A stretch of DNA of 64,000 bases from assembly GCF_011305535.1 (NCBI RefSeq), contig NZ_CP049905.1:2180001-2244000 (forward strand), written 5' to 3'. Positions within the stretch are counted from its first letter, which is position 1, and each line of letters opens with the position of its first letter. The position numbers were made by a program, and so were the translations under genes. This stretch comes from Diaphorobacter sp. HDW4B. Lineage in GTDB: Bacteria; Pseudomonadota; Gammaproteobacteria; Burkholderiales; Burkholderiaceae_C. The notes under the pieces are model-generated. The model was not told the DNA's origin. It did not search any database and saw only the letters and a program-made list of their open reading frames with translations. Below are positions 1,219-63,282 of the stretch, in pieces.

Positions 1219-2283
1219 ATGACCGCATCCCGCACTTCCTCTTCTTTGCTCAAGCACCTGAACATCGAACACCCCATCTTCCAGGGCCCGATGACCGGCT
1301 CGGACACCCCCGCACTCGCCGCAGCGGTCTCCAAGGCCGGCGCACTCGGCATGCTCGGCTGCGGCATGCGCTCCCCCGCCGCCATGGCCGAAGCCGCCAA
1401 CGCCGTGCGCGCAGCGACAGACAAGCCCTTCGGCATGAACCTCTTCGTGCTCAAGACCCCCACGCCCGATGCCGCCGTCGTGCAAAAAGCCATCGATCGC
1501 CTCGCGCCGCTGTACGCCGAATTCGGCCTCACCCCCAGCGTGCCCGCGCAATGGTGCGAAGACTTCGACGCCCAATTCGACGCCCTGCTCGCACAGAAGC
1601 CGTCTGTAGCGAGCTTCACCTTCGGCATCCTCACCTCCGAACAGGTCGAGCGCCTGCACGCCGCAGGCAGCTACGTGATCGGCACCGCTACCACCGTCGC
1701 CGAAGCCAAAGCCTGGCAGGCCGTGGGCGCCGATGCAGTCGTCGCCTCCGGCATGGAAGCAGGCGGCCATCGCGGCACGTTTCTGGGCGACTTCCAGGCC
1801 AGCATGATCGGCACCCTGCCCCTCGTCGCGGAATGCGCCGAGACACTGACCATCCCCGTGATCGCCGCAGGCGGCATCATGACCGGCAAATCCATCGCCG
1901 CCGCACTGGCACTGGGCGCACAGGCCGTGCAGATGGGCACAGCCTTCCTCGTCTGCCCCGAATCCGCCATCGGCCCCGCCTACCGCGAAGCCATGGCAAA
2001 CGCCAGCGCAACAGATACCCGCTGCACCCGCATCTTCTCAGGCCGCTACGCGCGCGGCATCGTCAACACGATGATGGAAAAACTCGCCGCATTCGAGCAC
2101 GACATCCCCGAATACCCCGTGCAAAACGCCCTCACAGGCGCACTGCGCAAAGCTGCAGCAGCAGCGGGACGTGCAGACTACCTCTCCCTCTGGGCAGGCC
2201 AAGGCGTAGCATCCGCCCGCGTGATGCCAGCAGAACAACTGGTTCAGAAACTGGTGGAAGAGTTGGCAGCAACAACGCACTGA
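1219..2283 (+). CDS. Nitronate monooxygenase (2-nitropropane dioxygenase family)
   Basis: This is an FMN-dependent TIM-barrel enzyme of about 354 residues that oxidises alkyl nitronates such as propionate 3-nitronate. Visible family features are the N-terminal HPIFQGPM, FGMNLFV, the GGHRGTF segment carrying the catalytic His, and the phosphate-binding VIAAGGIMTGKSIAAAL followed by GAQAVQMGTAFL. ATG 1219 has AAGGAG ten bases upstream (1203-1208). An alternative ATG at 1195 overlaps the LysR stop. It may form an operon with the LysR gene. A copy of the multi-hairpin repeat begins 13 bp after its stop. Similar proteins include enoyl-ACP reductase FabK, but the GGH motif favours nitronate monooxygenase. 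Confidence 0.85.
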   Translation: MTASRTSSSLLKHLNIEHPIFQGPMTGSDTPALAAAVSKAGALGMLGCGMRSPAAMAEAANAVRAATDKPFGMNLFVLKTPTPDAAVVQKAIDRLAPLYAEFGLTPSVPAQWCEDFDAQFDALLAQKPSVASFTFGILTSEQVERLHAAGSYVIGTATTVAEAKAWQAVGADAVVASGMEAGGHRGTFLGDFQASMIGTLPLVAECAETLTIPVIAAGGIMTGKSIAAALALGAQAVQMGTAFLVCPESAIGPAYREAMANASATDTRCTRIFSGRYARGIVNTMMEKLAAFEHDIPEYPVQNALTGALRKAAAAAGRADYLSLWAGQGVASARVMPAEQLVQKLVEELAATTH

Positions 2284-2296
2284 TCCAACCACACAG

Positions 2297-2505
2297 CATC
2301 TCGCGAATTCGCGAGATGCCCCGGCACGAGCAACGCGAAGTGCCGTGACATCCTCTTCCAAACTGACTTGCGGCAAGCTGTCTGAACGGAGCGCCTACGG
2401 CGCGAAGTGAGTTTTGCCGCAGGTATTCAAGCGCGCTTTTGGTGACTTTTCGCGCGCCAGCGAAAAGTTACTCGCCCGCCGGGGCGAGACCCGGCACCCG
2501 CCCTC
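2297..2505 (+). repeat. Multi-hairpin intergenic repeat R1, copy A
   Basis: This element of about 209 bp fills most of the gap between the convergent genes ending at 2283 and 2562. In order it contains a perfect 22-bp palindrome (2297-2318, CATCTCGCGAA plus its reverse complement), a CGGCAC/GTGCCG hairpin (2322-2345), a TGCGGCAA/TTGCCGCA stem (2369-2421) enclosing GCGCC-TAC-GGCGC (2391-2403), an ACTTTTCGC/GCGAAAAGT stem (2445-2468) and CTCGCC/GGCGAG (2471-2488). Related copies lie at 45234 and 61567. It has no transposase, and I see no target-site duplication. Confidence 0.85.
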
Positions 2506-2561: not shown

Positions 2562-3371
2562 CTAGTCCCACCAACGCGTCTTCTCCCGCGTATGCCGCCC
2601 CTTGAACCGCAAATAAACATTCTCATTCCCAACCCGCTGCAGCCGCTCGAAAATCTCCATCACGACAACACCCAGCGGATGCAACCCACACACATCCTCC
2701 AACCGATACCGCATATTGCGCAAGGTATCGTCCGTCCCCGGAATGAAGCCCGACACGCCATCGAACAGCCCCACCCGATGCGTCCACAGTTCATCCAGTG
2801 AAGCCTGCTGATCGGGCGTCTCGCCATTCACACCGAGAATGAACCGCTCGGTCTCCCCCAACTTCACCGTGTTCGCCAGCAGCGGGCCGTTCATCGCCAC
2901 GGCGCGCAGGACCGGATCGGTATCCAGATCGACAAAGGTGTCGCAAGCCGAGATCAGCCATCGCATGTCCAGATGCGCCACGAGAAAGTCGCGCTCGGCC
3001 ATCCACATGCGCTTGAAGCGTTCGTAGTTCGCGGGCACATCGGCTTCGCGGCGGATCAGCACGATCAGCATGGCGTGCTGATACAGCAACTCCGACTGCC
3101 CGATGAATTCGCGCCGCACCTTGGCCAGATGCTCGTCCAGATTCACCGACGCGCCATGCGCATGTTTCGCCTCTTCGTCGCCCTGCACGATGATGCGCTC
3201 GCGCAATTGCGAGTAGTCCTGGGCGTCGAGCTGCTGCGTGTGCGCATCCGCTCCGAAGCGCCGACGGTGCCGGGTGAAGGAGAACCACTTTTCAAAAGCC
3301 GATTTGCGACGATGGATCATGATTGAAACGAGTGGGTGGAGTAGCGGGGAGTGGTGCGTCTCGCCAGCCAT
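2562..3371 (-). CDS. Unknown protein encoded at the end of the polysaccharide operon
   Basis: The product is about 269 residues, has no recognised domain and no signal peptide or membrane segment. It is charged and rich in Arg, Asp and Glu. The ATG at 3371 overlaps the stop of the upstream glycosyltransferase gene by one base (TGATG), which favours coupled translation from there. The internal ATG at 3320 (MIHRRKSAFEKWF) would give a tidier N-terminus of 252 residues, so the start is uncertain. As the last gene of a polysaccharide operon it may modify or assemble the glycan, but that rests on position alone. A repeat copy lies just beyond its 3-prime end. Confidence 0.65.
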   Translation of the reverse strand: MAGETHHSPLLHPLVSIMIHRRKSAFEKWFSFTRHRRRFGADAHTQQLDAQDYSQLRERIIVQGDEEAKHAHGASVNLDEHLAKVRREFIGQSELLYQHAMLIVLIRREADVPANYERFKRMWMAERDFLVAHLDMRWLISACDTFVDLDTDPVLRAVAMNGPLLANTVKLGETERFILGVNGETPDQQASLDELWTHRVGLFDGVSGFIPGTDDTLRNMRYRLEDVCGLHPLGVVVMEIFERLQRVGNENVYLRFKGRHTREKTRWWD

Positions 3372-16090: not shown

Positions 16091-16097
16091 TTTGATC

Positions 16098-16206
16098 ACC
16101 CCCCTGAGTCGCTGCGCGCCTTCCCCCCTCTCTGCAGCTGCGCGAAGCGCAGCGGAGGGGGGACACCACCATCGCTGCGGGGCGGCCCTTGCTCGGTGGT
16201 CACTCG
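16098..16206 (+). repeat. Intergenic repeat R2, copy 1
   Basis: This copy begins CCCCCTGAG eight bases after the stop of the ThDP-enzyme gene and runs through a C-rich/G-rich stem (CCTTCCCCC paired with GGAGGGGGG), ACACCACCATCGC, and CTTGCTCGGTGGT. Copies at 27824-27937 (reverse) and 34869-34993 share the same order of blocks. The remaining 80 bp to the next gene hold only its ribosome site. Confidence 0.8.
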
Positions 16207-27823: not shown

Positions 27824-27937
27824 GGCCGCGGAGCAGGCCAAGCGAGCAACCGCCGAGCAAGAGCCGCCTCGCGGCGAAGGCGGTGTCCCCCTCCCGCGCA
27901 GCGAGAGAGGGGGAAGGCGCGTCAGCGCCTCAGGGGG
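27824..27937 (-). repeat. Intergenic repeat R2, copy 2, supplying a stop codon
   Basis: This reverse-oriented copy starts with CCCCCTGAGG, whose TGA is the stop codon of the binding-protein gene (27930-27932). It then has the C-rich/G-rich stem, CACCGCC paired with GGCGGT, and a terminal GGCC-TGC-GGCC hairpin (27824-27839). It lies between the binding protein and LivH in the same operon and could act as a processing or attenuation site. Confidence 0.8.
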
Positions 27938-34868: not shown

Positions 34869-34993
34869 CCCCCTGAGGCGCTGCGCGCCTTCCCCCTTCT
34901 CTCTCCGCGCTGCGCGCTACGGGAAGGGGGACACCGCCATCGCCGCGAGGCGGCTCTTGCTCGGCGGTACTCGTCAGGCCTGCTTTGCAGGCC
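34869..34993 (+). repeat. Intergenic repeat R2, copy 3
   Basis: This copy starts CCCCCTGAGG right after lplT. It has the paired CTTCCCCC and GGGAAGGGGG stretches, CACCGCC with GGCGGT, and a terminal hairpin GGCCTGC-TTT-GCAGGCC (34977-34993). Orientation follows lplT, as in the other two copies relative to their upstream genes. From 34994 to the next gene at 35175 nothing else is evident. Confidence 0.82.
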
Positions 34994-40792: not shown

Positions 40793-40935
40793 TTGCAATC
40801 AATCGCGCAGCCCACATGGCTGCGCCTCAGTCAAAAACACGCCATCATGCCATTTTCGGGAAACCCACCGGCTTCTTTGGTCTGAATCACCGAGCAATGT
40901 GCCGAAAAAATCGATTCGCGCCCTGACGAAATCGA

Positions 40936-42180
40936 TCAGGCCAGCGCAGAATCCAGCGCCTCGATCCAGTGCTTGACGGGCACGCCCGTGCCCGACTGAA
41001 GGTGGGTGATGCAGCCGACGTTGCTCGACAGAATCAGCGCGGGCTTTTCATCGCCGCAGGCCTGATCGAGCGCGGCGAGCTTGCGTGCGCGCAGCTTCTT
41101 GGACAGCTCGGGCTGCAGAATCGAATAGGTGCCAGCGGAGCCGCAGCACAGGTGCGATTCGGTGCGCGAGGTCAGCATCTGAAAACCGAGCTTGGCCAGA
41201 TCGCGCTCCACACCGCCGCGCAGCTTCATCGCGTGCTGCAGCGTGCAGGGCGGGTGGTAGGCAAGCTTGCCCTTGAAGTTCACGCGGCCCTTCAGCTTTT
41301 CGGCCAGCTCGGGCAGCATCGCGGGCAGCAGCTCGCTGATGTCGCGCGCGATGGCGCTGATGCGCTTGGCCTTTTCGGCATATTGGGCATCGGCCTTGAG
41401 CGCATGCGCGTAGTCCTTGACCATCGCGCTGCAGCCCGATGCGTTGACCACGATGTGCTCGACCGCGCCCGACGACACCATCGGCCACCAGGCATCGATG
41501 TTGGCGCGCATCTGCGCACGGCCACCATCCTGATCGTTCATGTGGAACTTCACCGCACCGCAGCAACCGGCGTTGCCCGCGATCACGGTCTGGATGCCCA
41601 CGGCATCGAGCACGCGCGCGGTGGCGTAGTTGATGTTGGGAAGCATGGACGGCTGCACGCAGCCCGCGAGCAGCAGCACCTTGCGCGCATGTTCGCGCGT
41701 CGGCCACACGCCGTGCTCCGACTTGGGCGGCACCTTGGCCTGAATGCTTTCGGGCAGCAGACCGCGCACGGCCTGACCAAGCTTCATCGCCGGTGCGAAC
41801 AGCGGCGACGGAATGCCTTCCTTCAAGGCCCAGCGCTTGAGGCGCTCGCCCGCGGGACGTGGCACTTTCTCATCGACGACCTGACGACCGATGTCCAGCA
41901 GATGGCCGTATTGCACGCCGCTCGGGCAGGTGGTTTCGCAGTTGCGGCAGGTCAGGCACCGGTCCAGATGCTCCTGCGTGGCGCGCGTGGGTTCCTTGCC
42001 TTCGAGCACCTGCTTGATGAGGTAGATGCGGCCACGCGGGCCGTCGAGCTCGTCACCCAAAGTTTGGTAGGTGGGGCAGGTCGCGGTGCAGAAACCACAG
42101 TGCACGCACTTGCGCAGAATGGCCTCGGCCTCCTGCCCGTGCGGCGTGTTCTTGTACTCGGGAGCTAGCTGTGTTTGCAT
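40936..42180 (-). CDS. glcF: Glycolate oxidase iron-sulfur subunit
   Basis: This 414-residue protein has two [4Fe-4S] ferredoxin motifs (CVHCGFCTATCP near residue 25 and CLTCRNCETTCPSGV near residue 75) and two CCG domains (VLLLAGCVQPSMLP with NAGCCGA; LAYHPPCTLQHAMK with LCCGSAG). It passes electrons from the flavin subunits of glycolate oxidase to the membrane quinone pool. It follows glcE by 39 bp. The main flavin subunit gene glcD is not in the window. Confidence 0.94.
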   Translation of the reverse strand: MQTQLAPEYKNTPHGQEAEAILRKCVHCGFCTATCPTYQTLGDELDGPRGRIYLIKQVLEGKEPTRATQEHLDRCLTCRNCETTCPSGVQYGHLLDIGRQVVDEKVPRPAGERLKRWALKEGIPSPLFAPAMKLGQAVRGLLPESIQAKVPPKSEHGVWPTREHARKVLLLAGCVQPSMLPNINYATARVLDAVGIQTVIAGNAGCCGAVKFHMNDQDGGRAQMRANIDAWWPMVSSGAVEHIVVNASGCSAMVKDYAHALKADAQYAEKAKRISAIARDISELLPAMLPELAEKLKGRVNFKGKLAYHPPCTLQHAMKLRGGVERDLAKLGFQMLTSRTESHLCCGSAGTYSILQPELSKKLRARKLAALDQACGDEKPALILSSNVGCITHLQSGTGVPVKHWIEALDSALA

Positions 42181-44115: not shown

Positions 44116-45090
44116 TCAAACGCCCAGCGTGCACCACCGCACCGGCAAGCTCGCCACACCCACCACGCGATGCAGCACCTGCCCCGACGCTGGCAGATTC
44201 GCCAACTCCTGCGCAGCCCGACCGTGGCTGGCCGAAGTGACGAACAACGTATCCCCCTCCGCCCCACCCAGACAAGGCATGGTCGGGCACTGCACCGGCA
44301 TCGCGAACTCGGCGATCACCGACCCCTGCGGCGACAACTGCAACACCCTCGCACCTTCGTACATCGCACACCAGTAATTGCCTGCAGCATCCACCACGGC
44401 CCCATCCGGCCGCCCGCCATAACCAGCCATCCCCGGCTGCCACCCGGCAGGCTTGGCCGCAAACGCATGAAACACCCGCGCATCCCCCACCGGCTCGCGC
44501 TGCGCATCACAGTCCCACACCCGAATCGCATGCTGCGGTGTATCGCTCCAGTACATGCGCGCACCATCCGGCGACCAAGCCAACCCATTGGCCGTGGCCA
44601 CCCCATCCAGCATCAACCGAACGGACACATCGGCAGCATCCCGCAAATCCACGCAATACAACCCGGCAACAGGCTGACGCGCCCCACTCACAGGCTCATG
44701 CACGGTCCCCACCCAGAACCGCCCGAGCGCATCGCACTTGCCATCATTCGCCCGCTGCGTGGAAGCATCAATGGGCAACCGCGCCACCTCGCGCAACGCC
44801 CCGCCCCACTCGTCCGCATGGCAAATCCGATCCCGCAACGCCACCACCAGCCCCGAAGCCACCCCCGCCATGCGCGCAGGCGCGATGCAGCCGGGCTCGG
44901 AAGGCATCTCCCAACGCTCCACCCGCGCATCCCCCGGCACCCAACGCAACAACGCCCGCCCCGCAATATCCACCCAGTAAAGCCGCTGCTCCACCGGATG
45001 CCAAAACGGCGACTCACCCAATTGGCACAACGAGCCCGGCACAGCACTCCATGAATCGGAAGCAGCACGAGGAGAAGAAAGATGGTTCAT
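44116..45090 (-). CDS. SMP-30/gluconolactonase family protein
   Basis: This 324-residue six-bladed beta-propeller hydrolase has LGESPFWHPVEQRLYWVDI with the metal Glu, NDGKCDALGRFWVGT with the Asn/Asp ligand region, NGLAWSPDGARMYWSDTPQH and RPDGAVVDAAGNYWCAMY. Family members hydrolyse sugar lactones with a divalent metal. ATG 45090 (MNHLSSPRA) is preferred over nine upstream codons. It stands alone upstream of a long repeat-bearing gap. Confidence 0.9.
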   Translation of the reverse strand: MNHLSSPRAASDSWSAVPGSLCQLGESPFWHPVEQRLYWVDIAGRALLRWVPGDARVERWEMPSEPGCIAPARMAGVASGLVVALRDRICHADEWGGALREVARLPIDASTQRANDGKCDALGRFWVGTVHEPVSGARQPVAGLYCVDLRDAADVSVRLMLDGVATANGLAWSPDGARMYWSDTPQHAIRVWDCDAQREPVGDARVFHAFAAKPAGWQPGMAGYGGRPDGAVVDAAGNYWCAMYEGARVLQLSPQGSVIAEFAMPVQCPTMPCLGGAEGDTLFVTSASHGRAAQELANLPASGQVLHRVVGVASLPVRWCTLGV

Positions 45091-45233
45091 GCGGGGATTA
45101 TTCCTGCACGAACGCAAGTGACCAAACCACGCGCGCAGTCACCCCCACCCCAGCCCTCCCCCGCAAGCAGGAGAGGGAGCAAGACCAAAACCCCCAACCA
45201 ACGAACCAGCAACGCCCACTCCCCGCGCACCAG

Positions 45234-45440
45234 CATCTCGCGAGGTCGCGAGATGAACAGGCACGAGCGAAGCAAAGTGCCGTAAATACCTCTTCAAAAC
45301 TGACTTCCGGCGGTTGTCCGAGCGCAGTGACGAAGGAACGCAGCGAGTTCTGCCGGAGGTATTCAAAGCGTTTTTTGGTGACTTTTTGGCGCAAGCAAAA
45401 AGTTACTCGCCCGCCGGGGCGAGACCCGGCACCCGCCCTC
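45234..45440 (+). repeat. Multi-hairpin intergenic repeat R1, copy B
   Basis: This copy lies in a 502-bp gap between two minus-strand genes. Hairpins match copy A in order: CATCTCGCGA-GG-TCGCGAGATG (45234-45255), GGCAC/GTGCC (45260-45281), TCCGGCGG/CTGCCGGA (45306-45357) and ACTTTTTG/CAAAAAGT (45381-45403), then CTCGCC/GGCGAG. The third and fourth stems differ from copy A by paired changes that keep base pairing. The stretch 45091-45233 holds only C-rich, low-complexity sequence. Confidence 0.85.
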
Positions 45441-45592: not shown

Positions 45593-47005
45593 TCAACGGT
45601 GATAAGCCGTCTCGCCATGCGAAGTGATGTCCAACCCTTCGCGTTCCGCTTCTTCACTCACACGCAGACCCACGATCAGATCAGCCACCTTGTACGCAAT
45701 GAACGCCACCACGCCGGACCACACGATGGTGAACAGCACGCTCTTGACCTGCACCCACACTTGGTGACCCATGGCGAAGGTGTCAGGCTGCATGCCGCCC
45801 AGGCTGGGCGCAGCAAACACACCGGTCAGGATCGCGCCGACGATACCTCCCACGCCGTGCACACCGAAGGCGTCGAACGCGTCATCCACCTTGAGCATGC
45901 GCTTCAAGCCACCCACGCCCCACAGACACACCACGCCGCAGACCAGACCGATCACGATGGCACCCATCGGGCCGACGAAACCGGCAGCAGGCGTCACACC
46001 CACCAGACCCGCCACCGCACCGGAAGCAGCACCCAGCATCGAAGCCTTGCCTTTGTGCAGCGCCTCACCGGCAATCCAGGACAGCGTGGCAGCGGCAGTG
46101 GCCAGAACCGTGTTCACGAAAGCCAGACCAGCGACCGCGTTGGCAGCACCGGCGGAGCCGGCGTTGAAACCGAACCAGCCCACCCACAGCAGCGATGCGC
46201 CCACCATGGTCAGTGTCAGCGAGTGAGGCGTGAACGCTTCCTTGCCGAAACCGATGCGCTTGCCCACCATGTAGGCACCCACGAGACCCGCGATACCGGC
46301 GTTGATGTGCACCACGGTGCCGCCAGCGAAGTCCAGCGCGCCGTCAGCCGCCAGCAGACCACCACCCCAGACGATGTGAGCCATCGGCAGGTAGCTGAAG
46401 GTGAACCAGATGACCGAGAAGATCAGCACGGCAGCGAACTTGGTGCGTTCCGCAAAAGCACCCACGATCAGCGCTACGGTGATGGCGGCGAACGTGCCCT
46501 GGAACGCGAAGAACACGTATTCGGGAATGGTCGTCAGCGCACCGAAGGATTCGAGGTTGATGCCCTTCATGAACAGCTTGTCGAAGCCGCCGATGAACTT
46601 GCCCTCTCCCGAGAACGCCAGGCTGTAGCCGTAGACGGCCCACAGGATGGAGACCAGCGAGAAGATCACGAACACTTGCACCAGCACCGACAGCATGTTC
46701 TTGGAGCGGCCAAGACCACCGTAGAACAGCGCCAGACCCGGAATGATCATCAGGATCACGAGCAGCGTCGAGGTCAGCATCCAGGCGGTGTCGCCCGAAT
46801 CGATCTTGGGCGCTGGCGCGGCAGCCGCAGCAGGGGCTTCGGCCGTTGCAGCAGCAGGAACTGCAGCGGGAGTTGCCGCAGCAGAGGTGTCAGCAGTCGC
46901 CGCAGCGGCGACCGGCTCGGAAGCCGCAGGAGTCTGCGCCAGCGCAGCCGTACCACCGGCCAGCAGGCTGAACCCCAGAAGGAATGAAGCAAGCAGTTTT
47001 TTCAT
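45593..47005 (-). CDS. amtB: Ammonium transporter AmtB
   Basis: This 470-residue protein has a signal peptide (LLASFLLGFSLLAGGTAALA), an unusual Ala/Pro-rich linker of about 45 residues, and then the eleven-helix Amt core from GDTAWMLTSTLLVILMIIPG. Marks include AIVIGLVCGVVCLWGVGGLK and the second pore His in FDAFGVHGVGGIVGAI. It conducts ammonium into the cell and is blocked by GlnK when nitrogen is plentiful. It is the last gene of a porin-glnK-amtB unit behind a sigma-54 promoter. Confidence 0.95.
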   Translation of the reverse strand: MKKLLASFLLGFSLLAGGTAALAQTPAASEPVAAAATADTSAAATPAAVPAAATAEAPAAAAAPAPKIDSGDTAWMLTSTLLVILMIIPGLALFYGGLGRSKNMLSVLVQVFVIFSLVSILWAVYGYSLAFSGEGKFIGGFDKLFMKGINLESFGALTTIPEYVFFAFQGTFAAITVALIVGAFAERTKFAAVLIFSVIWFTFSYLPMAHIVWGGGLLAADGALDFAGGTVVHINAGIAGLVGAYMVGKRIGFGKEAFTPHSLTLTMVGASLLWVGWFGFNAGSAGAANAVAGLAFVNTVLATAAATLSWIAGEALHKGKASMLGAASGAVAGLVGVTPAAGFVGPMGAIVIGLVCGVVCLWGVGGLKRMLKVDDAFDAFGVHGVGGIVGAILTGVFAAPSLGGMQPDTFAMGHQVWVQVKSVLFTIVWSGVVAFIAYKVADLIVGLRVSEEAEREGLDITSHGETAYHR

Positions 47006-59910: not shown

Positions 59911-61557
59911 ATGGAATTCGATACCGTTTTGCTGCCCGAACGGCGTGCGCGCATGCTCGACCAAAAGCTCTGGCACCAGCGCACGATCAACGACGCGCTC
60001 GAAGCCTGCGTGGCCCACTGCCCGGACAAACTGGCCTTGATGGCGCTGCGGGTCGAAAGCGGCGAGCGCACGCCATTCACCTACCGCGAGATGGCGTGCA
60101 TGGCCGACCGCATCGCCGTGGGCCTTGCTCGCCTCGGGGTGAACAAGGGCGATGTGGTGGCCTGCCAGTTGCCCAACTGGTGGCAATTCACGCTGCTGTA
60201 TCTCGCGTGTTCGCGCATCAGCGCGGTGATGAATCCGTTGATGCACATCTTTCGCGAGCGCGAACTGCGCTTCATGCTGCAGCATGGCGAAGCCAAGGTG
60301 TTCATCGTCCCCCGCATATTCCGCGGACATGATTTCGAATCGATGGCGTCGGGCTTGAAAACCGAATTGCCGCATCTTGCGCACACCGTGGTCATCGACG
60401 GCCAAGGCAGCAACAGCTTCGAAGCCCTGCTCGGCGGCCCGCACTGGGAGGACGAGACCGACGCACACGACATCCTCACACGCTCGCGCCCCACGCCCGA
60501 CGACGTCACCCAGCTCATCTACACCTCCGGCACCACCGGCGAGTCCAAGGGCGTGATGCACACCGCCAACACGCTCATGGCCAACATCATTCCGTATGCC
60601 GAGCGGCTGCATCTGGGCGAGGACGACGTCGTGCTCATGGCCTCGCCCATGGCGCACCAGACGGGCTTCATGTACGGCCTGATGATGCCCATCCTGCTGC
60701 AATCGCGCGCCGTGCTGCAGGACATCTGGGACGCAGCCCGGGCCACCACCCTGATCCGCGAACAGGGCGTGACTTTCACCATGGCATCCACCCCGTTCCT
60801 CACCGACCTCTCGCGCCATGTGGCGACCGAGGGCGGCGGCATCCCCAGCCTGCGCACCTTCCTGAGCGCAGGCGCGCCCATCCCCGGCCCACTGGTCGAA
60901 CAGGCGCGCGCCGCGCTGGGCGCCAAAATCATCTCGGCCTGGGGCATGACGGAAAACGGCGCGGTGACCACCACCACACCCGAAGACGACGATGAGCGCT
61001 CGGTGCATACGGACGGCAAGCCCTTGCCCGGCGTGGAAATCAAAATCGCCGACATCGACGGCACTGCACTCCCCGCAGGTCAGGAGGGCAAGCTGCTGCT
61101 ACGCTCCTGCTCCAACTTCGGCGGCTACCTCAAACGCCCGCACCTCAACGCTACCGATGCCGAAGACTGGTTCGACACCGGCGACCTCGCGCGCAAAGAC
61201 GAGCAAGGCTACATCCGCATCACCGGCCGCAGCAAAGACGTGATCATTCGCGGCGGCGAAAACATTCCGGTGGTGGAAATCGAATCCCTGCTCTACCGCC
61301 ACCCCGACATCCAACACGCCGCCATCGTCGCCTATGCCGACGAACGCCTGGGCGAACGCGCCTGCGCAGTCGTCGTCCCGCGCAACGGCGCAACGCTCAC
61401 ACTTGAAGACCTGCGCGCCTTCCTGACAAAGGAACGCGTGGCGCTCCAATACATCCCCGAAAAGCTGCACGTTCTGGAACAAATGCCAGCCACCCCTTCC
61501 GGAAAAATCCAGAAGTTCAAACTCCGAGACCTGCTGAAAACCCAAGCACAAAGCTGA
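59911..61557 (+). CDS. aliA: Cyclohexanecarboxylate-CoA ligase
   Basis: This is a 548-residue ANL-family acyl-CoA synthetase: P-loop YTSGTTGESKGVMHT near residue 208, ISAWGMTENGAVTTTTP, the hinge WFDTGDLARKDEQGYIRITG and the C-terminal Lys in PSGKIQKFKL. It activates cyclohexanecarboxylate, or a close alicyclic acid, with ATP and CoA. GAGGAG lies just upstream. Other medium-chain ligases look similar; the operon partners decide the name. Repeat R1 copy C starts nine bases after the stop. Confidence 0.88.
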   Translation: MEFDTVLLPERRARMLDQKLWHQRTINDALEACVAHCPDKLALMALRVESGERTPFTYREMACMADRIAVGLARLGVNKGDVVACQLPNWWQFTLLYLACSRISAVMNPLMHIFRERELRFMLQHGEAKVFIVPRIFRGHDFESMASGLKTELPHLAHTVVIDGQGSNSFEALLGGPHWEDETDAHDILTRSRPTPDDVTQLIYTSGTTGESKGVMHTANTLMANIIPYAERLHLGEDDVVLMASPMAHQTGFMYGLMMPILLQSRAVLQDIWDAARATTLIREQGVTFTMASTPFLTDLSRHVATEGGGIPSLRTFLSAGAPIPGPLVEQARAALGAKIISAWGMTENGAVTTTTPEDDDERSVHTDGKPLPGVEIKIADIDGTALPAGQEGKLLLRSCSNFGGYLKRPHLNATDAEDWFDTGDLARKDEQGYIRITGRSKDVIIRGGENIPVVEIESLLYRHPDIQHAAIVAYADERLGERACAVVVPRNGATLTLEDLRAFLTKERVALQYIPEKLHVLEQMPATPSGKIQKFKLRDLLKTQAQS

Positions 61558-61566
61558 CCGCCCAAA

Positions 61567-61770
61567 CATCTCGCGAAGTCGCGAGATCACCGGCACGAGC
61601 GCAGCGAAGTGCCGCAACACCCCTCTTCCAATCTGACTTGCGGCAAGCTGTCTGAACGGAGCGCCTCCGGCGCGAAGAGAGTTTTGCCGCAGGTATTCAA
61701 AGCGTTTTTTGGTGACTTTTTGGCGCAAGCAAAAAGTTACTCGCCCGCCGGGGCGAACACCCGGCACCCG
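61567..61770 (+). repeat. Multi-hairpin intergenic repeat R1, copy C
   Basis: This copy lies between the converging aliA and binding-protein genes. It keeps ATCTCGCGA-AG-TCGCGAGAT, CGGCAC/GTGCCG, TGCGGCAA/TTGCCGCA enclosing GCGCC-TCC-GGCGC as in copy A, and ACTTTTTG/CAAAAAGT as in copy B. The rest of the 278-bp gap, 61771-61835, shows nothing else. Confidence 0.85.
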
Positions 61771-61835
61771 CAATCAACCCCTCAACCGAAGCAAAAACCA
61801 GACAACGAAAAAAAGCGAAAACCCAACTGCCGCAA

Positions 61836-63071
61836 TCAGTTGGCAGCAGCAGGCCGCAACTTCTTCACTTCCTCATCGGAGGGTTGGTAATCCTTCCCAT
61901 CCGCATAGTGATAGTTCACCAAAACGCCGCGCCCCAACTTCGCGTCATAAGCCGTCTTCCCGATGTAAGCCCCCATCGTCGACTGATGATCCTGCGCGCG
62001 ATAAGTGATCCGCCCAAACGGCGTGTCCACCTCCAGCCCCTTGAAGGCTTCCACCAGCTTGGCAGTCTCCGCACTGCCACCCGTCTTGCGCAGACCCGCC
62101 GCGATCGACTGGATCGCGTTGTAGCCCACGATGGTGCCCAGACGCGGGTAGTCCTTGTACTTGGCCTGATAGGCGGCGAGAAACGCCTTGTGTTCGGGCG
62201 TGTTGATCGAGTACCAAGGGTAGCCGGTCACGGTCCAGCCCACGGGTGCCTCTTTTTTCAGCGGATCGAGATATTCCGGCTCGGCGGTCAGCAGACCGAC
62301 CACTTCGCGGCCCTTGAACAGGCCGCGTGTGTTGCCTTCCCGCACGAACTTGCCCATATCGGTTGCAAAAAGCACGTTGAAGATCGCATCCGGCTTGGAG
62401 TCGGCAAGCGCCTGCACCACACTGCCCGCATCGATCTTGCCCAGAGCAGGTGCCTGCTCGGCCACGAATTCGATGTCCGGCTGCTTTTCCTTCATGAGCT
62501 TCTTGAAGGTGGCGACCGCAGATTGTCCGTATTCGTAGCTGGGATAGACAATCGCCCAGCGCTTCTTGTTGAGCTTGAGCGCTTCGGGCACCAGCATGGC
62601 GACCTGCATGTAGGTCGAAGCGCGCAGGCGATACGTGTAGGGGTTGCCCTCCGCCCAGACGATCTTGTCGGTCAGCGGCTCGGACGCAAGGAAGAAGCGC
62701 TGTTTCTGCTTGGAGTAATCCGTCAGCGCCAGACCCACGTGCGAGAGAAAGCTGCCGGTCAGCACGTCGATCTTCTCGCGGGTGTACAGCTCCTCGGCCG
62801 CGCGCACGGCGTCCGCCGGGTTGCCGCTGTCGTCGCGGATGACGAGCTGCAGCTTCTTGCCCGCAATGCCGCCGGCCTTGTTGACCTGCTCCACCGCCAG
62901 TTCCATGCCCTTCTTGTAGGGCTCCAGAAAGGCGGGCTGGGCCTTGTAGCTGTTGATTTCACCGATCTTGATGACCTCGGCGGCCAGGGAATGAGATGCC
63001 AGCACATAGCCCGCCACGGGGAGCGCGAGGCGCAATTTCGACCATTTTTGCGAGCTTTTGACTACCGTCAT
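61836..63071 (-). CDS. Periplasmic binding protein, probably for the second Liv-type system
   Basis: This 411-residue solute-binding protein has a signal peptide (LRLALPVAGYVLASHSLAA) and a Leu/Ile/Val-type fold: IKIGEINSYKAQPAFLEPYK, LVIRDDSGNPADAVRAAEEL and YPSYEYGQSAVATFKKLM. ATG 63071 (MTVVKSS) is chosen because AAGGAG lies seven bases before it; the ATG at 63077 is only one base from it. It sits apart from the permease and ATPase genes at 52902-56319, which have no binding protein of their own, so it very likely serves them. Expected cargo is an alicyclic or aromatic acid. Confidence 0.88.
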   Translation of the reverse strand: MTVVKSSQKWSKLRLALPVAGYVLASHSLAAEVIKIGEINSYKAQPAFLEPYKKGMELAVEQVNKAGGIAGKKLQLVIRDDSGNPADAVRAAEELYTREKIDVLTGSFLSHVGLALTDYSKQKQRFFLASEPLTDKIVWAEGNPYTYRLRASTYMQVAMLVPEALKLNKKRWAIVYPSYEYGQSAVATFKKLMKEKQPDIEFVAEQAPALGKIDAGSVVQALADSKPDAIFNVLFATDMGKFVREGNTRGLFKGREVVGLLTAEPEYLDPLKKEAPVGWTVTGYPWYSINTPEHKAFLAAYQAKYKDYPRLGTIVGYNAIQSIAAGLRKTGGSAETAKLVEAFKGLEVDTPFGRITYRAQDHQSTMGAYIGKTAYDAKLGRGVLVNYHYADGKDYQPSDEEVKKLRPAAAN

Positions 63072-63282
63072 CGTCATTCTCCTTATCACTAATTGATCTC
63101 AAAACAAGGCCATGCAATGTACCCGGAAGTTAGTATTTATCCGAAAATAAGTAATTCGTAGTCCGCGAGGCCACTGCCAAGAGCCAGGCAACCAGTTTTA
63201 CCCAAGCTCTCAGTTTCCAAGCGTGTTTTTATCGGCAGGCATTGTTTTTTTCCTGCCCCTGTTTATTCGCTATCCAACGAAC

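Follow-up and report, generated by a model that had tools for sequence, protein, structure and literature searches.

The stretch of 64,000 nt analysed here (the window; C1:2180001-2244000 of the host genome, G000) carries three complete copies of an intergenic repeat of about 205 bp, at 2297, 45234 and 61567, which are referred to below as copies A, B and C. Five hairpins (H1 to H5) had been described in one and the same order in each of them by the first-pass annotation, and the alignment bears this out, with a mean column identity of 88% over aligned stretches of about 260 nt. Copy A follows a nitronate monooxygenase gene (1246-2283, plus strand), starting 13 nt past its stop codon, and a convergent gene (2562-3320, minus strand) lies on the far side of the copy. 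Similarly, copy C follows an acyl-CoA synthetase gene (59911-61557, plus strand) and starts 9 nt past its stop codon, with a convergent periplasmic-binding-protein gene beyond the copy (61836-63077, minus strand). Copy B lies antisense to both of its Pfam-supported neighbours, an ammonium transporter gene (45593-46780, minus strand) and an SGL-family gene (44116-45117, minus strand). The copies and their parts are as follows.

2297..2505, plus strand: copy A, complete single element (alignment, repeat profile)
2297..2318, plus strand: H1 of copy A, palindrome CATCTCGCGA/TCGCGAGATG
2322..2345, plus strand: H2 of copy A, CGGCAC/GTGCCG
2369..2421, plus strand: H3 of copy A, an 8-bp stem that covaries, topped by hairpin H3b (2391-2403); its internal loop is nearly fixed
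2442..2471, plus strand: H4 of copy A, GTGACTTTTC/GAAAAGTTAC, third pair a wobble
2471..2488, minus strand: H5a of copy A, CTCGCCC/GGGCGAG, followed on the minus strand by TAACTTTTCG (terminator-like)
2478..2495, plus strand: H5b of copy A, GCCGGG/CCCGGC, mutually exclusive with H5a
45234..45440, plus strand: copy B, complete single element (alignment, repeat profile, Pfam neighbours)
45306..45357, plus strand: H3 of copy B, TCCGGCGG/CTGCCGGA version
45423-45406, minus strand: H5 of copy B, terminator-like
61567..61775, plus strand: copy C, complete single element (alignment, folding)
61639..61691, plus strand: H3 of copy C, TGCGGCAA/TTGCCGCA version
61738..61759, minus strand: H5a of copy C, followed by ACTTTTTGCT (terminator-like)

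The paired changes claimed for the third and fourth stems are present in the alignment. H3 is of the TGCGGCAA/TTGCCGCA version in copies A and C and of the TCCGGCGG/CTGCCGGA version in copy B, and between A and B a G-C pair is replaced by C-G, an A-T pair by G-C and one A-T pair by G.T; in H4, one C-G pair of copy A is T-A in copies B and C. The further statement that neither an ORF nor a transposase lies within the repeat holds for the transposase, while mechanical ORFs do overlap the copies. A coding reading of an internal ATG frame was rejected, since the hairpin lengths differ among the copies by non-multiples of three. At some loci the H1 position is occupied by other hairpins. H5 consists of two mutually exclusive stems, H5a and H5b, the latter using bases of the former, and H5b (GCCGGG/CCCGGC) appeared as a single allele in 162 arms parsed by a program that sought exactly that sequence. 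A pseudoknot between H5a and H5b was rejected by reasoning, the joining loops being too short in one version.

In the host genome, an iterated profile over 63 stretches recovered 75 loci with 105 arms scoring above 60 bits. Of these loci, 45 are singles of about 205 bp, and the other 30 are doubles that all have one layout, a minus-strand arm followed by a plus-strand arm, with the H5 ends outermost and the 5' ends facing each other. The second arm of a double is a sub-type in which a different hairpin replaces H2 or in which H4 is of the CTTTCTTTT type. Four further loci were read, and the family therefore counts at least 79 loci, a lower bound. One of the four lies on the 0.76-Mb second replicon C2, where the covariance model described below found a copy at C2:140886; the notion of a chromosome-only distribution was accordingly dropped. 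Moreover, the palindromic H5b pattern occurs 116 times in the host genome, compared with 4 occurrences of a reversed control. A CCCCCACCCCAGCCCTCCCCCGCAAGC-type stretch was seen upstream of copy B, at 45140-45180, and CCCTCTCCCGC repeats that resemble it stand mid-way in some doubles.

According to the gene caller, 39 of the 75 loci are situated between convergent genes, 33 between co-directional genes and 3 between divergent genes. Element-free gene pairs at least 40 bp apart in the same stretches comprise 8 convergent, 147 co-directional and 62 divergent pairs (28.6% divergent), a background whose convergent share is biased low because the stretches were chosen for holding elements. The Pfam check of neighbours covered the window copies and the other loci were assigned by the gene caller alone, which missed the SGL-family gene, so that copy B was counted as convergent though it is antisense to both neighbours. 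H1 lies 2-20 nt past a stop codon in 16 of the 33 cases with a neighbouring 3' end, and within 20 nt of a start codon in 0 of 12. Likewise, 78 of the 105 H5 ends face the 3' end of a gene, at a median distance of 44 nt. Copies of the element abut gene 3' ends and avoid divergent promoters. On a larger scale, 54 of the 75 loci fall in the chromosome half around dnaA (C1:2627418), and 33 of the 45 singles are oriented against the assumed replication fork if the origin lies next to dnaA.

The covariation of these sequences is strong. Among the 65 full-length copies contained in the 105 arms, 95.8% of the cells of the drawn structure are paired. Both sides were changed at 15 pairs and in 137 cells, compared with 8.8 pairs and 31.6 cells after shuffling and with 1-4 pairs and at most 21 cells in slid controls; since the copies are not independent, the number of changed cells exceeds the number of events. 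One of the five measures, the number of further pair types in the 65 copies, was not above the shuffles (28 vs 28.1). The H3 stem occurs as CGCGGCGG/CTGCCGCG, CACGATAG/CTATCGTG, the two versions found in the window and others, and H5a occurs as CTCGCC/GGCGAG, TCCGCC/GGCGGA and CTGCCC/GGGCAG. Across genera, H3 follows a consensus of approximately CTGACT, stem, YTGTCCGAACGGAGCG, hairpin, CGCGCAGTGAGTT, stem, in which the stem is free and the remainder nearly fixed. In 30 of the 32 distinct H3 versions collected, all pre-filtered for at least 7 of 8 H3 pairs, 13 of 14 pairs and 82 cells were changed on both sides, compared with 19.1 cells after shuffling, and an H3 pair outside the pairing filter was A-U in 15 and G-C in 13 of the 30 sequences.

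This covariation is also strand-polar. When 174 arms of the host genome and of the relative G004 were read on the plus strand (H3 parsed in 157, H4 in 152), the non-Watson-Crick cells of H3 and H4 comprised 230 G.U, 3 A.C and 16 others, and a count per distinct H3 or H4 allele still gave 17 G.U and 3 A.C. A similar trend was found in G003, with 34 G.U and 0 A.C in H3 and H4 of 14 arms. At the third position of the H4 stem, 97 of 101 parsed arms of the host genome and 46 of 51 of G004 have G.U or U.G; in other genera 10 G.U cells were counted in H4 over 19 parsed arms, and the wobble is not fixed outside the genus. The excess of G.U favours plus-strand RNA or single-stranded DNA over a cruciform, since a cruciform or any other both-strand mechanism gives no cause for G.U over A.C. 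A direction for H5a derived from the same kind of count was dropped, because H5a has its outermost base in common with H4 and its palindromic pattern matches both strands. The earlier proposal of selection on a folded nucleic acid is thus supported by covariation above both controls, by the both-side variation of H3 across genera and by the predominance of G.U over A.C. The first-pass annotation had made this reading depend on significant covariation and on the copies not lying inside a recognised transposable element; the covariation exceeds both controls, and no such element was recognised around the copies.

For the plus strand of copy C, the minimum-energy structure (-85.1 kcal/mol; z = -3.32 relative to 200 dinucleotide shuffles) contains all five hairpins, H5 being in the H5b form; the minus strand gave a z of -0.92. 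Copy A, folded in pieces, gave z values of -2.14 and -2.85, and the H3-H5 piece of copy B gave -1.67 with a different best fold. Taken without H1, the plus strand folds better than the minus strand in 62 of 105 arms of the host genome and in 55 of 69 arms of G004; shuffles of 60 arms favour the minus strand by a mean of 3.6 kcal/mol (sd 5.8). Folding of whole arms in the host genome mildly favoured the plus strand (mean -75.0 vs -74.0). On the minus strand, H5a followed by a short T run is terminator-like at all three window copies. However, the T run of copies A and B begins 4 nt beyond the H5a stem, whereas the usual spacing in intrinsic terminators is shorter, and terminator-like sites were not in excess over shuffles in the scanned stretches (23 vs 18.6, sd 4.9; 5 vs 5.0, sd 2.7). 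A terminator test of the H5 flanks, which 101 of 105 ends passed, was set aside as it had been run without a control. Separate terminator-like hairpins with T runs were noticed on the minus strand outside the elements, at 45490-45467 and 61843-61823, and belong to the H5-side neighbours of copies B and C. Consensus promoter scans gave no promoter-like site inside the three window copies.

Comparison with related genomes showed how the positions and the contents of the elements behave. The sample from G004 consisted of 40 stretches, 39 chosen from among the BLAST matches listed for copy C and one taken around slot C, and held 44 element loci, 23 of which lie between the same flanking genes as an element of the host genome. 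At 13 of these 23 shared slots the single or double state differs. Arms were on average 83.5% identical in the 27 pairs from shared slots, 81.6% over all pairs from different species, and 85.1 and 84.9% within one genome; the orthologous arm had a median identity rank of 35 among 105, and 4 of 27 ranked 2 or better. Slots persist while their contents homogenise within a genome, and some vertical signal is left, the homogenisation being incomplete. In and beside the window, all four slots (one of them just outside) hold an element in both G004 and G002, a partial one in the case of slot B of G002. Slot A is double in G004 (with one partial arm) and in G002 and single in the host genome. Between species, slots A and C have different H3, H4 or H5 stems, which pair where parsed; several stems, mainly of slot B, were unparsed. 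At a fifth slot (window 40907-40951), inspection by eye revealed a 2.3-kb molybdopterin-oxidoreductase-like gene in G004 and G002; the element starts 1-3 nt past this gene in both relatives, and the host genome has neither the gene nor the element. No clean empty site was found in the one 65-kb region compared in three genomes. One G004 locus (L191) joins the flanks of two inverted copies of the host genome (L055, L056) that lie 18 kb apart. This difference is apparently an inversion between two copies, and the elements may act as recombination points.

By BLAST, the element was present in all six genus genomes searched, with at least 8 to at least 69 matches per genome among the matches listed, the lowest number being found in an 83%-complete assembly. 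A covariance model (R1, covering H3-H5) was built from 42 diverse copies and run on the host genome and its relatives, and it matches 85 of 150 sampled genomes of the family (E <= 1e-6). The flanking acyl-CoA synthetase has its nearest named relative in Diaphorobacter caeni (83%), and the sampled family is accordingly, judged from sequence, almost certainly Comamonadaceae. Other genera likewise have minus-plus arm pairs about 0.4 kb apart. In an order-wide sample the model matches 18 of 200 genomes, 5 of them in the same family. The repeat profile was also applied to 83 synthetase-region loci. Three of these are from the genus, and the other 80 are named contigs that surround a related synthetase gene and that, at no more than 14 kb each, represent a sliver of their genomes. 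Strong matches were obtained at all three genus loci and in D. caeni, and a weak one in a single Ramlibacter contig. Copy C had no blastn match among plasmid or phage records, although one copy of the family is situated on the second replicon C2. The window had 0 Rfam matches at the gathering score, and four element loci gave 5 Rfam matches at E <= 5, all below the gathering score and to unrelated families. In G336, a genome of another family, inverted H4-H5 arms were observed 1-2.7 kb apart with accessory ORFs between them (L254, L255, L256), one of which is TIR-domain-like by eye.

Several known systems share features with this family. REP/BIME elements are intergenic, high-copy, hairpin-forming sequences at gene 3' ends with inverted arrangements, and the REP/RAYT unit is a single short imperfect palindrome preceded by a conserved tetranucleotide. 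The present element resembles them in its intergenic, high-copy hairpins, in its location at gene 3' ends and in its inverted arrangement. In contrast, its unit of about 205 bp contains five hairpins in a set order where those have one, it has many covarying stem versions and many slots common to different species, and among the 85 genomes that carry it 24 lack a Y1_Tnp match at E <= 0.001. ERIC, NEMIS/Correia and RU-type repeats are intergenic palindromes of 100-200 bp that fold when transcribed, and they are similar to the element in kind and size; unlike them, it has no terminal inverted repeat or target-site duplication that was recognised, short of a systematic survey. REP/BIME elements of enterobacteria and pseudomonads are treated in PMC1525189 and PMC2817692. 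The Beta-proteobacterial repeat element (BRE) is, according to PMC3110155, a chromosomal intergenic repeat of about 90 bp in Betaproteobacteria including Comamonadaceae, with 1-29 copies per genome, a tandem VNTR-like arrangement in Bordetella and, among the loci of its Table 3, none between divergent genes. By this description, the element is likewise intergenic, chromosomal, found in Betaproteobacteria including Comamonadaceae and rarely between divergent genes; it may perhaps correspond in part to BRE, the H4-H5 part being the candidate region. Tandem arrays of the BRE type were absent from the 75 loci; these are singles or inverted doubles, some with partial extra pieces (e.g., at 4345088). 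Stem covariation at 3' ends, often of convergent genes, is also shown by bidirectional intrinsic terminators that evolve by compensatory change (PMC5381666); these are unrelated single stems, whereas the element is a repeated, sequence-related, multi-hairpin family with a weak T run. A literature search returned no recognised description of the family beyond the possibly related BRE. In a broad sense the element is a structured intergenic repeat, set apart by its size, by stems that are modular and covary, by its strand polarity and by the way its slots behave. Intergenic palindromic repeats are commonly taken as selfish DNA; here, the strand-polar covariation, the nearly fixed loop within a changing stem and the shared slots with exchanged contents argue that the RNA matters. 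The function of such repeats becomes testable in culturable relatives, and the R1 model can be used for annotating the family.

What can be said most safely is that the element marks gene 3' ends and has a plus strand that is kept foldable. Beyond this, we tentatively favour, at slightly less than even chances, the reading that the element is a multi-copy, recombining, RNA-structured 3'-UTR or transcript-end module at the ends of neighbouring, preferably convergent, genes, with a function deduced from sequence comparison. Of the roles suggested earlier, transcript-end structure fits the location best. Plus-strand RNA read from the H1 side would fold into H1-H4 and form a strong 3' boundary, which might act as protection from exonucleases or offer the nearly fixed H3 internal loop as a site for an RNA-binding protein, while transcription arriving from the H5 end would meet H5a and the T run from the side of H4, akin to a weak intrinsic terminator. 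A single would thus serve its two sides asymmetrically, and a double would present the H5 face to both. Recombination between copies could swap whole hairpins and switch singles to doubles and back, and we propose that a slot is retained because the gene pair needs a 3' boundary there. Several observations run against such a transcript-end module. In doubles, the plus-strand arm lies behind the H5 face of the other arm, so that strong termination at H5 would leave the plus-strand RNA of the other arm unmade; the two could be reconciled if termination were partial or if the two faces were active at different times. Copy B is antisense to both of its neighbours and prefers another fold, the H5-side neighbours of copies B and C have terminator-like hairpins of their own, and the location at 3' ends can also be explained by harmful insertions elsewhere. 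A doubtful extension is a genus- and family-wide RNA regulon in which dozens of gene pairs would share one module homogenised by recombination, a single protein or ligand on the nearly fixed H3 loop, between its freely covarying stems, would set transcript end and stability, and the single or double state would choose one or both neighbours.

The same features could instead belong to a REP/BIME- or MITE-like selfish repeat, whose hairpins would be recognised as single-stranded DNA by an HUH (Y1) or other transposase that spread them, and for which gene 3' ends would be tolerated insertion sites. Its high copy number, BIME-like inverted doubles, strand-specific imperfect hairpins and avoidance of divergent regions are in line with this view, as is the presence of one Y1 gene in the host genome. 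However, element and Y1_Tnp are not associated over 150 genomes (both in 61, element alone in 24, Y1 alone in 51, neither in 14), and no element hairpin was seen by eye within 1.6 kb around the only Y1 gene of the host genome. Copy C is without a match in plasmid or phage records, the 65-kb comparison gave no clean empty site, and its sole missing slot was lost together with the adjacent gene. If the origin lies next to dnaA, the orientation of most singles against the fork moreover means that in most of them the covarying plus strand does not serve as template for the lagging strand. We regard a selfish repeat as unlikely, and the earlier idea of a REP-like element moved in trans is weakened by the Y1 results together with the many shared slots, while a REP-like origin in the past is possible.

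An action at the DNA level, as a cruciform or protein site for chromosome organisation, supercoil relief or recombination between convergent genes, would suit the convergent preference, the concentration of loci near dnaA and the 18-kb apparent inversion bounded by two copies. Such an element appears improbable, since a cruciform needs both strands, yet G.U far outnumbers A.C on one of them; furthermore, the third pair of H4, kept as a wobble within the genus, is a mismatch in DNA, and the H3 internal loop is nearly fixed while the sequence of its stem changes. The strong plus-strand fold of copy C and the same internal loop would also be compatible with independent sRNAs or a trans-acting RNA family transcribed from within the elements, and transcripts are reported in PMC3110155 at a BRE-bearing Bordetella locus whose repeat is perhaps unrelated. 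We consider this very unlikely, as the consensus scans gave no internal promoter-like site in the three window copies and the position a few bases past stop codons suggests mRNA tails. Lastly, the covariation might have arisen by mutation without selection, through template switching that corrects imperfect palindromes and through copying between loci, and homogenisation within a genome would indeed let paired versions pass on by conversion. Template correction would, however, erase wobbles, whereas the H4 wobble stands in nearly all parsed arms of the host genome, and the 32 distinct H3 stem versions across genera, collected under the pairing filter, likewise make this origin extremely unlikely.

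The window also contains another intergenic repeat, observed at 27849-27937 and 34869-34968, about 7 kb apart, with arms that are 96% and 76% complementary. This repeat has GGGGGACACCGCC and GAGGCGCTGCGCGCCTTCCCCC motifs, and a related piece lies at 16097-16133.
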